Origin: Actinomadura fibrosa
GTDB lineage: Bacteria > Actinomycetota > Actinomycetes > Streptosporangiales > Streptosporangiaceae
Length of the DNA stretch: 64,000 nt
Assembly: GCF_900659615.1 (NCBI RefSeq)
Contig: NZ_CAACUY010000002.1
Span: 1-64,000, forward strand
Direction of reading: 5' to 3'
Shown: positions 27,474 to 31,765 of the stretch, one piece after another
Layout: every line of letters begins with the position of its first letter
How positions within the stretch are numbered: position 1 is the first letter of the stretch
Notes under the pieces: model-generated
Seen by the model: only the letters and a program-made list of their open reading frames with translations
The model's database searches: none
Told to the model about the DNA's origin: nothing
Made by a program: the position numbers and the translations under genes

Positions 27474-28802
27474 TCAGCGGACGGCGCCCGTCACCATCCA
27501 CCGGTCGCCACGCGCGCGAAGGCCCAGCGTGAGCATCCGCGTCGCCATCCACAGCCCGATGGCGACCCAGAGGCCGACCAGTCCGGCGTCCGCCCGATAA
27601 AGGATGAGGGCCGCAGGCAGGAACACCACCGTCGCGAGCACAGTGGTTACCGCCAGGTAGGCCCCGTCCCCCGCACCGATCAGGATCCCGTCCAGGACGA
27701 ACACCACACCCGCGACGGGCTGGAGCACCGCGACGAGCAAAAGCGAGGCCAGCAGCAGGTGCCGGACGTCACCGTCCGACGTGAACAGCGACGGCAGCCA
27801 CGGCCGCACCGCGAGGATCGCCAGCCCGAAGGCCACACCGCACGCCACGCCCCATCCCACCATTCGCCGGGTCACCGCCCTGGTGCCCGCGATATCGGAC
27901 GCACCCAGATACCGTCCGGTAATGGCCTGACCCGCGATGGCGATCGCGTCCAGCGCGAACGCCAGCAGCGTCCACACCTGGAAGCCCACCTGGTACGCGG
28001 CGATCTCGGCATCGCCCATCCGCGCCGCGATCGACGTCCCCACGATGAGGACGATCCGCAGCGCCGCCGTACGGAGCAGCAGCCCGAATCCCGCCGTCGC
28101 GGACGTCCGCAACCCCGCCGCGTCGGGCCGCACCAGCGCCCCGTGCCGCCGCGCCGCGCGCAGCACCACGACCACGTAGACGGCCGCGCTGCCCGTCTGG
28201 GCGAGTACGGTGCCCCACGCCGAACCGGCGATGCCCCACCCGAGGACGAGCACGAACACCGCGTTCAGCAGCAGGTTCACCGAGAACCCGCCGATGGAGA
28301 CGACCAGGGGCGTCCGGGTGTCCTGCAATCCCCGCAGCACTCCCGTGCCCGCCAGGACGATCAGCATCGACGGGATGCCGAAGAGACTCACGCGCAGGTA
28401 CGTCTCGGCGAACGGCGTCACGGCCGGGGACGCCCCGAACGCGTCCACGATCGGCGGGATCAGCGGCCATCCGGCCGCGATCAGCACGATCCCGATCGCG
28501 AGCGCGAGCCACATGCCGTCGATGCCCTGCCTGACCGCCGCCCGGAGATCCCCGGCGCCGACCTGCCGCGCCACGCCCGCCGTCGTCCCGTACGCCAGGA
28601 ACACGCAGAGGTAGACCAGCGTGTTCAGCGCCTGCGCCGCCACCCCCAGCCCGCCGAGCTGCGAGGTGCCGAGATGGCCGACGATGGCGCTGTCGGACAG
28701 CAGGAACAGCGGCTCGGCGACGAGCGCGCCGAACGCCGGCACGGCGAGCCGGAGGATCTCGCGATCGTGCGCGTTCGGACGCCGCCGGGACAAGTCGATC
28801 AT
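27474..28802 (-). CDS. MATE-family efflux transporter (DinF-like)
   Basis: The 442-residue protein has about 12 membrane helices. The MATE hallmarks LAVPAFGALVAEPLFLLSDSAIVGHLGT (residues 17-44) and LYLRVSLFGIPSMLIV-like segment near residue 130 (YLRVSLFGIPSMLIVLAGTGVLRGLQDTRTP) are clear. MATE proteins export cationic drugs or metabolites using Na+ or H+ gradients. It converges with tetR (12 bases between stops). The start ATG has only a weak AGGA upstream. Its 5' side is the DnaA-box region of dnaB. Confidence 0.88.
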   Translation of the reverse strand: MIDLSRRRPNAHDREILRLAVPAFGALVAEPLFLLSDSAIVGHLGTSQLGGLGVAAQALNTLVYLCVFLAYGTTAGVARQVGAGDLRAAVRQGIDGMWLALAIGIVLIAAGWPLIPPIVDAFGASPAVTPFAETYLRVSLFGIPSMLIVLAGTGVLRGLQDTRTPLVVSIGGFSVNLLLNAVFVLVLGWGIAGSAWGTVLAQTGSAAVYVVVVLRAARRHGALVRPDAAGLRTSATAGFGLLLRTAALRIVLIVGTSIAARMGDAEIAAYQVGFQVWTLLAFALDAIAIAGQAITGRYLGASDIAGTRAVTRRMVGWGVACGVAFGLAILAVRPWLPSLFTSDGDVRHLLLASLLLVAVLQPVAGVVFVLDGILIGAGDGAYLAVTTVLATVVFLPAALILYRADAGLVGLWVAIGLWMATRMLTLGLRARGDRWMVTGAVR

Positions 28803-29143: not shown

Positions 29144-31765
29144 GTGAGCGTGACGGAGCTCGGAGCGCACGAGCAGGAGTTCGAACGCACGCCTCCGCAC
29201 GACATCACCGCCGAACAGGGCGTCCTCGGCGGCATGCTGCTCTCCCAGGACGCCATCGCCGAGGTCGTCGAGGTCCTCCGCACGCAGGACTTCTACCGTC
29301 CCGCGCACCAGATCATCTACGACACGATCCTCGACCTCTACGGCCGCGGCGACCCCGCCGACGCCGTCACCATCGCGGGCGAGCTCACCAAGAACGGCGA
29401 GATCGGCCGCATCGGCGGCGCCCCCTACCTGCACACCCTGATCTCCTCGGTGCCCACGGCCGCCAACGCGGGCTACTACGCCAAGATCGTCCACGAGCGC
29501 TCGGTGCTCCGCAAGCTCGTCGAGACCGGCACGCGCATCGTCCAGATGGGCTACGCCGCCGACGGCGCCGACGCCGACGAGGTCCTCGACCGAGCCCAGG
29601 CCGAGGTCTTCGCGATCGCCGAGAAGCGCGCCGGCGAGGACTACGTCCCGCTGAGCGAGATCATGCCCGGCGCCCTGGACGAGATCGAGGCGATCGGCAG
29701 CCGCGGCGGCCAGATGGTCGGCTGCCCCACCGGTTTCGCCGACCTCGACGCCCTCACCAACGGCCTGCACCCCGGCCAGATGGTAGTCGTCGCTGCAAGA
29801 CCTGCCATGGGCAAGGCCCTAGAGCTGAGTGTCCCACTTCCTACGCCTTCGGGATGGACGACAATGGGCGAAGTGTCCGTTGGCGACTACCTGATCGGAG
29901 CCGACGGGAAGCCGACCCGGGTCGTCGCCGCGACCGAGGTCATGCACGGGCGTCCCTGCTACGAGATCGAGTTCTCGGACGGCGAGGTGATCGTCGCCGA
30001 CGCGCAGCACCAGTGGCGCACGACCACCCGTGCCTCCCGCCGGCAGCGCACCGAGAACAAGCGCGCGTACTACTGGTCCGACGAGGCGATCAACCGCGTC
30101 CGCTGGGCGACGGCCGACGCCAACGACCGACCCCGTCGCCTCATCACGCACGGCGAGGCCATGGCCGCGGTCGGATCAGAGTTCAAGGACGCCCTCTATG
30201 CGGTGACGCGCCAGCTCGGTCACCGAGGTGAGGCCGACACGAGCCTGTCGAGGCGTCAGCCGCGCTACGAGAGTACGAGCCTGCACCGAGAGCTCCTTCA
30301 GCGCGCCGTGCGTCCGAAGAACGCCGCGACCACGGCGCAGCACCGTCCCGTCAAGACGACGGAGGAGATCGCCGCGACCCTGCGGTGCGTTGGCGACGAC
30401 CGTCCCAACCACGCCGTCGCGGTCGCCGCGCCCTTCCAGCTCCCGCCCGCGGACCTGCCCATCGCCCCGTACGTCCTCGGCGCCTGGCTCGGTGACGGTT
30501 GCAGTTGGCACGGTTCCATCACCTGTTTCGACGAAGAGATCCTCGACGAGATCGAAGCGGCTGGGCAGCCTGTGAAGCGGCGAATGACTCCCGGTCAGTT
30601 CGGCCTTCCGGGGCTCACCGGGGTGATCAAGGGATTGGGGCTGTACCGGAACAAGCACATCCCGCCTGCCTACCTCCGGGCCTCCGAGGAGCAGCGGCGG
30701 GCGCTGCTGGCCGGGATGCTCGACACCGACGGCTACGTGTCCGAGATCGGGCAGGTCCAGCTCGCGTTCGCCAACAAGCGGCTGGCGGAGGACGCCCGAG
30801 AGCTCATCCTCAGCCTGGGCTATCGCGTCACGATGACCACCAAGCCGGTGAAGGGCCGGTCGCCGGAGACATCGACCTTCTATCGGATGAACTTCACGCC
30901 GACCGAGCCGGTGTTCCGGTTGCCGCGCAAGGCCGCGCGGCAACGGATGAACGTCCACCCGAAGGCGCGGGTGCGCTACATCGTGGACGTCCGCCGCGTC
31001 GAGAGCGTGCCGGTGCGATGCGTCCAGGTGGACAACGCCGACCACATGTACCTGGCCGGGCGGTCCTGCATCCCGACGCACAACTCGACACTCGCCCTCG
31101 ACTTCGCGCGCGCCGCGTCCATCAAGCACGGGCTGACGTCGGCGTTCTTCAGCCTGGAGATGGGGCGCAACGAGATCACGATGCGCCTGCTGTCCGCCGA
31201 GGCGCGGGTGGCGCTGCACGCCATGCGCTCCGGCACCATGCAGGACGAGGACTGGACGCGCCTGGCCCGGCGGATGAGCGAGGTCGCCGAGGCCCCGCTG
31301 TTCATCGACGACTCGCCGAACATGTCGATGATGGAGATCCGCGCGAAGTGCCGCCGACTCAAGCAGCAGCACGATCTGCGGCTGGTCATCATCGACTACC
31401 TCCAGCTGATGACCTCGGGCAAGCGGGTGGAGAGCCGCCAGGTCGAGGTCTCGGAGTTCTCCCGTTCGCTGAAGCTGCTCGCAAAGGAGCTGGGCGTCCC
31501 GGTCATCGCGCTGTCGCAGCTGAACCGTGGCCCCGAGCAGCGGACGGACAAAAAGCCCATGGTGTCCGACCTTCGCGAATCGGGCAGCATCGAGCAGGAT
31601 GCCGACATGGTCATCTTGCTGCATCGCGAGGACGCCTACGAGAAGGAGTCACCGCGGGCGGGCGAGGCCGACCTGATCGTGGCCAAGCACCGCAACGGCC
31701 CCACCGCCACCGTCACGGTCGCCTTCCAGGGCCACTACAGCCGCTTCGTCGACATGGCTCAATAG
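29144..31765 (+). CDS. dnaB: Replicative DNA helicase DnaB, interrupted by an intein
   Basis: DnaB is the hexameric fork helicase. The 873-residue precursor consists of an N-extein (1-224), an intein (225-647) and a C-extein (648-873), giving a 450-residue helicase of normal size after splicing. The N-terminal domain reads PHDITAEQGVLGGMLLSQDA; Walker A is split as ARPAMGK/ST with the intein just after the lysine (K224). Walker B is LRLVIIDYLQLM, and the later motifs VPVIALSQLNRGPEQR and DLRESGSIEQDADMV are intact. The GTG at 29144 has AGGGGG before it. M. tuberculosis dnaB (Rv0058) also carries an intein. Without splicing the ATP site would be destroyed. Confidence 0.97.
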   Translation: MSVTELGAHEQEFERTPPHDITAEQGVLGGMLLSQDAIAEVVEVLRTQDFYRPAHQIIYDTILDLYGRGDPADAVTIAGELTKNGEIGRIGGAPYLHTLISSVPTAANAGYYAKIVHERSVLRKLVETGTRIVQMGYAADGADADEVLDRAQAEVFAIAEKRAGEDYVPLSEIMPGALDEIEAIGSRGGQMVGCPTGFADLDALTNGLHPGQMVVVAARPAMGKALELSVPLPTPSGWTTMGEVSVGDYLIGADGKPTRVVAATEVMHGRPCYEIEFSDGEVIVADAQHQWRTTTRASRRQRTENKRAYYWSDEAINRVRWATADANDRPRRLITHGEAMAAVGSEFKDALYAVTRQLGHRGEADTSLSRRQPRYESTSLHRELLQRAVRPKNAATTAQHRPVKTTEEIAATLRCVGDDRPNHAVAVAAPFQLPPADLPIAPYVLGAWLGDGCSWHGSITCFDEEILDEIEAAGQPVKRRMTPGQFGLPGLTGVIKGLGLYRNKHIPPAYLRASEEQRRALLAGMLDTDGYVSEIGQVQLAFANKRLAEDARELILSLGYRVTMTTKPVKGRSPETSTFYRMNFTPTEPVFRLPRKAARQRMNVHPKARVRYIVDVRRVESVPVRCVQVDNADHMYLAGRSCIPTHNSTLALDFARAASIKHGLTSAFFSLEMGRNEITMRLLSAEARVALHAMRSGTMQDEDWTRLARRMSEVAEAPLFIDDSPNMSMMEIRAKCRRLKQQHDLRLVIIDYLQLMTSGKRVESRQVEVSEFSRSLKLLAKELGVPVIALSQLNRGPEQRTDKKPMVSDLRESGSIEQDADMVILLHREDAYEKESPRAGEADLIVAKHRNGPTATVTVAFQGHYSRFVDMAQ
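29816..31084 (+). mobile_element. Class 3 intein with LAGLIDADG homing endonuclease
   Basis: The 423-residue insert starts with Ala (ALELSVPLPTPSGWTTMGEV) instead of Cys/Ser and ends THN before Ser+1 of the extein. It has the class 3 W-C-T set: Trp67 in block B (ADAQHQW, with His65), Cys402 in block F (PVRCVQVD) and Thr421 in block G (PTHN). Such inteins splice through a branch on the block F Cys. A LAGLIDADG endonuclease is present with LGAWLGDG (Asp227) and LAGMLDTDG (Asp305), both catalytic acids kept, so mobility may persist. The first codons (CTA, AGT, CCA, CTT, CCT) are unlike the host. Confidence 0.92.

Follow-up and report, generated by a model that had tools for sequence, protein, structure and literature searches.

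When an intein sits in the P-loop of a replicative helicase, it may be asked how the host protein is restored and whether the homing endonuclease carried by such an intein is still at work. The question is raised by the DnaB gene of Actinomadura fibrosa, in the stretch of 64,000 nucleotides analysed here (contig NZ_CAACUY010000002.1, positions 1 to 64,000; hereafter the window). The intein found there has 423 residues, lies between the lysine and the serine of the P-loop, and combines a class 3 signature with both aspartates of the LAGLIDADG motifs. It is regarded as highly probable that it is spliced by the class 3 route and is likely still homing. This reading draws on the anatomy of the insert, homology, a predicted fold, conserved residues, constraint at the codon level and conflict between trees; from these we infer the chemistry and the cutting, the route of transfer and what the intein does to replication.

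Anatomy of the DnaB intein and its predicted splicing

The precursor, read from the GTG at 29144, has 873 amino acids, a length common to several relatives, and matches the N- and C-terminal helicase domains of DnaB in Pfam and NCBIfam. In the recomputed frame the intein covers residues 225-647, exactly as proposed in the initial annotation. ARPAMGK precedes it and STLALD follows, so the P-loop is split between Lys and Ser. In a sample of 65 genomes of the genus, all with DnaB, 63 carry an insert at this site and two (G174 and G037) do not; in these two the intein-free form ARPAMGKSTLALD reads ARPAMGK/STLALD. Because these two alleles carry no insert, both boundaries are fixed without reliance on motifs, and the earlier placement of the insertion directly after the P-loop lysine is borne out. 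With phmmer, residues 1-71 and 385-423 align to the N- and C-terminal ends, respectively, of DnaB mini-inteins of solved structure (best E value 9e-44), and chance is excluded because the 63 inserts stand at exactly this site. The Lys/Ser insertion point and the homologous splicing domain place the element among the DnaB P-loop inteins (DnaBi1 or DnaB-b).

Class 3 inteins have no Cys, Ser or Thr at their first position, carry Trp, Cys and Thr in blocks B, F and G, and in nearly all members end in Asn followed by Ser or Thr. In the recomputed translation Ala1, Trp67, Cys402, Thr421, Asn423 and Ser+1 were all recovered at the positions first given, with His422 between the last two intein residues of the signature. 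A1, C48, D62, H65, W67, C402, T421, H422 and N423 are invariant in all 62 in-frame copies of the genus (137-596 amino acids), and C418 is kept in 59 of them. One genome (G253) was left out of these counts since its 1820-nt insert at the dnaB site (L080) is not a multiple of three, reflecting a sequencing error or a broken frame.

According to the accessible part of PMC5222942, the block F Cys of class 3 inteins acts first and two branched intermediates follow. Judged from its residues, the window intein would proceed likewise: the block F branch would form by attack of Cys402 on the bond between Lys and Ala, the chain would move from Cys402 to Ser+1, and Asn423 would cyclise, leaving a closed P-loop. 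Before splicing the helicase would have no complete ATP site, and splicing would in this manner control helicase activity; the loss of ATPase through a P-loop intein is described as only reasonable to assume in the text available of PMC6195587. In the same part of that source, the M. smegmatis DnaBi1 intein, also located in the P-loop, forms a Cys48-Cys118 disulfide upon oxidant treatment, and every tested change of Cys48 abolished splicing. Counterparts of this pair, Cys48 and Cys402, are present in the window intein. Since the invariance of Cys48 fits a need for splicing, its presence by itself would say little in favour of an evolved sensor.

The endonuclease and its fate across the genus

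Each of the two LAGLIDADG motifs holds an Asp at the catalytic position (D227 in LGAWLGDG and D305 in LAGMLDTDG), as is expected of a homing endonuclease of this family. The LAGLIDADG_3 profile is matched with 34.3 bits against a cut-off of 22.5, and the fold model adds a PI-SceI-like endonuclease to the splicing domain, with both motifs modelled confidently. The endonuclease had been described as apparently intact, and this description agrees with both retained Asp, with the profile match and with a group-level omega (ratio of nonsynonymous to synonymous rates) of 0.067 over the 13 full-length copies including that of the window. The window intein likely still encodes a working enzyme, which would cut intein-free alleles at the joined GK/ST; the intein would then be copied into them during repair.

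Within the genus this single site is found empty or filled by full-length, eroded or mini-inteins. Both D227 and D305 are kept in 15 of the 62 in-frame copies, one of them in 7 and none in 40, four of the last being mini-inteins of 137-178 amino acids. Thirteen of the 15 both-Asp copies, the window's among them, have 423-424 residues, and two (G210 and G231) are shortened. Some eroded inteins are much longer than the full-length form (L116 in G227, 596 amino acids; L083 in G249, 563; L117 in G247, 526). The match to the C-extein is split, in the manner of a second intein, about 170 residues past the P-loop in 15 of the 65 genomes (for example L099 in G217 and L105 in G232); no such split is seen in the window. 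In a wider family sample, matches to the intein were obtained in 120 of 200 genomes. Related inteins were also noticed after the GK of P-loop proteins other than DnaB, with flanks such as MPHMLIAGATGSGK (L018 in G160, L019 in G035, L020 in G137 and L035 in G032).

In the full-length copies omega was 0.047 for the N part of the splicing domain, 0.090 for the linker, 0.010 for the C part and 0.021 for the exteins. In 18 species that have lost both Asp and form one clade of the intein tree (examples are L122 in G203, L123 in G131 and L069 in G223), the values were 0.062 for the N part, 0.274 for the linker, 0.133 for the endonuclease, 0.025 for the C part and 0.007 for the exteins. Grid runs and free fits of the codon models agree, and for the dead endonuclease core omega = 1 lies 292 log units below the best grid value. 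Pairwise medians over non-independent pairs were 0.52 (endonuclease) and 0.87 (linker) in the 34 long copies from which at least one of the two Asp is missing, and 0.18 and 0.16 in the full-length group. The size of omega depends on the method in this GC-rich genus, the pairwise medians being higher; the direction is the same, and with either method the dead core comes out under tighter constraint than the stretch preceding it. Retention of the reading frame is uninformative, because a frameshift would break an essential gene, and it is the substitution pattern that counts. Aid to splicing by endonuclease domains regardless of nuclease activity is discussed in the accessible part of PMC8966425; the dead clade is possibly an example, its core fitting a splicing scaffold, although this amounts to no proof.

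Probable movement between lineages, junction codons and rival readings

The species tree was built from the atp operon (6229 columns, 64 of the 65 genomes; G235 was omitted for a partial match). The rpoB gene was rejected as a species marker, as several genomes have two copies, with matches in different places, and 8 of the 65 have no match over the cut-off. With 61 taxa the species tree is rejected by the intein data (approximately unbiased, AU, test, p 1e-8), as it is locally, both for the group containing G217 and G243 (p 1e-13) and, on the splicing domain only, for G225 with the mini-intein species (p 2e-6); for the exteins of the 13 full-length copies rejection is marginal (p 0.04). Between the inteins of G217 and G243 synonymous differences amount to 4% in the endonuclease, 9% in the linker, 12% in the N splicing part and 25% in the short C part; between G217 and its near kin G203 they reach 54%, 51%, 63% and 21%, respectively. 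The exteins differ by 9% and 10% in these two pairs. In the species tree G225 (L107, 424 amino acids) is sister to G209 (L097, 137 amino acids) with support 100. Among the inteins, the three of 137 residues (G233 L093, G216 L096 and G209 L097) form a clade of their own, also with support 100. Full-length copies inside eroded or mini lineages point to replacement by transfer, and both the G217/G243 and the G225 cases are likely to represent replacement or re-invasion.

A further feature concerns codon composition at the N-junction, compared between 13 full-length copies and 40 dead, mini or frame-shifted ones (G235 was dropped for two stops in its joined extein reading). Third-position GC is 0.62 against 0.89 in codons -12 to -6 (p 1e-6), 0.77 against 0.91 in codons -5 to -1 and 0.45 against 0.82 in intein codons 1-10, and in the full-length copies it has recovered to 0.98 at codon -21 and beyond. 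Past the C-junction the two groups do not differ clearly over the first 12 codons and differ slightly over codons 13-20 (0.91 against 0.96, p 0.03). The copies are related, thus these p values overstate independence. When each full-length copy is set against its closest kin that are not full-length, it has the lower value in 8 of 9 comparisons, one of these 8 (G240) including a tie with one of its two kin. Around the N-junction of full-length copies RNA structure is predicted to be weaker. AT-rich third positions on both sides of the junction were observed in the window and at L009 and L098-L112, and are absent in most dead or mini copies.

Of the two empty alleles, that of G037 (L128) has AT-rich codons of this kind and that of G174 ordinary ones. 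The string GCC GCA AGA CCG GCA before the site is common to G037, to the intein-bearing G215, G236 and G237 and to L024 of another genus, and in G037 it could be the scar of a precise intein loss. Among 26 loci of other genera only G052 is AT-rich on both sides (0.43 before, 0.40 after), and a few are so on one side (L024 0.71, L030 0.64 and L020 0.71 before; L018 0.50 and L029 0.60 after); the search pattern missed the C-end in four (L018, L019, L020, L035) and no junction was found in L022. AT-richness of the N-junction as a general trait of active inteins was rejected, as most of these loci are without it though most keep both motifs. As to an internal promoter or a ribosome start being the cause, the junction sequences show nothing obvious, and no promoter scan was made. 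Candidate causes are protection from self-cutting, flanks travelling with the intein, or donor composition.

These observations could be joined in a broader proposal of two lives of the endonuclease. In the active phase, the endonuclease would drive the host allele to recode its own junction, and the resulting rare AT-rich codons on both sides of the N-junction would protect the left half-site and the intein start against renewed cutting; in the dead phase, the core would be kept by selection as a splicing scaffold (omega about 0.13, 18 species) while the preceding region loosens, and such lineages could be re-invaded by active copies. The proposal is judged rather unlikely to hold as a whole, its standing being lowered by some intact copies of other genera without the junction codon pattern.

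Several points weigh against a class 3 intein that is still homing. With the site filled in nearly all genomes few empty targets are visible, and the Hom_end profile reaches 21.0 bits, 0.1 bit short of its cut-off of 21.1. The AU test fails to reject the species tree both in the set of 13 full-length copies (p 0.26) and in a local ten-taxon group with G240, G234 and G238 (p 0.5). Transfer of the window's own copy is undecided, because the intein of the sister genome G231 is shortened and synonymous sites are near saturation against it (near 0.5 against every copy compared). Co-conversion around the intein was also considered: twelve pairs of genomes were compared by identity profiles of dnaB, and 61 genomes by partial Mantel tests over twelve segments, and neither approach revealed a junction-centred tract. 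For the 14 codons before the junction r is 0.155 (p 0.02), and 0.19 and 0.18 in two farther segments, and co-conversion is not claimed, the correlation being no higher at the junction than farther out.

The most serious alternative, though still an unlikely one, is that splicing follows class 3 but the window endonuclease is already inactive through some defect unrelated to the two Asp, the intein being fixed and merely inherited. Decay is common in the genus, where most in-frame copies have lost both Asp and seven one, and sister G231 keeps both in an intein of only 339 amino acids. The window intein, on the other hand, retains its full length and both Asp, belongs to a group with low omega, has a confident two-motif fold model and bears the N-junction codons typical of full-length copies. 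The splicing part of the reading has its own rival, a class 2-like route without Cys402 in which Ser+1 attacks the N-junction directly. Class 2 inteins likewise lack an N-terminal nucleophile (PMC5222942, in its accessible part), but the full Trp-Cys-Thr set is invariant in all 62 in-frame copies of the genus and the closest relatives of solved structure belong to class 3, so that this route is hardly credible.

It may also be argued that inheritance in the genus is only vertical and that the scattered full-length copies are those not yet decayed. The two tests that do not reject the species tree are in favour, as is the G248/G202 pair, where a single Asp has been lost at low divergence. This is nevertheless quite improbable in view of the endonuclease of G217, which differs at synonymous sites by 4% from G243 and by 53-54% from G203 and G221 with exteins at 9-10% in all three pairs, of the full-length G225 beside the separate clade of 137-residue inteins, and of the rejected species-tree placements of G217 and G225. 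A class 3 intein that is likely still homing is therefore preferred.

Coordinates and comparison with known inteins

Table 1. Parts of the dnaB precursor gene and its intein, numbered along the window
Feature	Positions	Strand	Basis
dnaB precursor gene, 873 aa, GTG start, stop included	29144..31765	+	frame; Pfam and NCBIfam DnaB matches
N-extein, ending in ARPAMGK	29144..29815	+	translation
AT-rich third codon positions spanning the N-junction	29774..29875	+	codon composition
Intein, 423 aa	29816..31084	+	translation, phmmer, empty-site genomes
Splicing domain, N part (residues 1-75)	29816..30040	+	phmmer, fold model, structural alignment
Cys48 codon	29957..29959	+	translation; genus conservation; M. 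smegmatis counterpart
Trp67 codon (block B)	30014..30016	+	translation
Mostly helical linker before the endonuclease (residues 76-205)	30041..30430	+	fold model; boundaries set by analyst
First LAGLIDADG motif (residues 219-228; Asp227 30494-30496)	30470..30499	+	sequence, fold model
Second LAGLIDADG motif (residues 298-306; Asp305 30728-30730)	30707..30733	+	sequence, profile match, fold model
Splicing domain, C part (residues 385-423)	30968..31084	+	phmmer, fold model
Cys402 codon (block F)	31019..31021	+	translation
Thr421-His422-Asn423 codons (block G)	31076..31084	+	translation
C-extein, first residue Ser+1; second intein absent	31085..31762	+	translation; genus DnaB comparison

Just before dnaB, on the opposite strand, lies an open reading frame of 442 amino acids (27474-28802, minus strand), presumably a MATE-type transporter.

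Class 3 DnaB inteins, insertion in the P-loop and LAGLIDADG-bearing inteins are all already known. The newer part is the genus setting, and the series is more useful than the single intein of the window: in one genus of 65 sequenced species the same codon position is occupied by full-length, one-Asp, dead or mini forms or is left empty. A literature search returned no paper combining Actinomadura, intein and DnaB, and no comparable genus-wide series in the titles and abstract openings of the matches listed, most subscription papers being beyond reach. Such a series makes it testable why endonucleases persist after fixation, for which alternatives are listed in the accessible part of PMC1654191, and whether a dead endonuclease becomes needed for splicing, the mutualism treated in the portion available of PMC8966425.

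The nearest named proteins to the window DnaB come from Actinomadura and Spirillospora. In the protein database the DnaB proteins of Actinomadura, Spirillospora, Nonomuraea and other Streptosporangiales, which bear no label beyond replicative DNA helicase, have inteins at the same site with at most 85% identity over the whole window intein; in contrast to it, many are eroded, longer or without a LAGLIDADG_3 match, and some are accompanied by a second intein. The yeast VMA intein PI-SceI is far more distant (16-18% identity), resides in another host protein and has a Cys nucleophile as its first residue. The closest solved systems are the Mycobacterium class 3 P-loop mini-inteins, M. smegmatis DnaBi1 (PDB 6bs8/6own) and MchDnaB-1 (PDB 6rix/6riy), of the type named DnaB-b in the accessible text of PMC5050341, where they are given as being without endonucleases. 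They have in common with the window intein the insertion point, Ala1, Cys48, Trp67, the block F Cys, the Thr-His-Asn end and Ser+1, and the splicing domains are 62-64% identical (62% to M. smegmatis DnaBi1 by structural alignment). The mycobacterial forms, studied as redox and zinc sensors, have 139-145 amino acids and no endonuclease, whereas the window intein adds a helical linker and a LAGLIDADG endonuclease with both Asp; judged by its sequence, it is the full-length, mobile-type counterpart of these mini-inteins at the same site.
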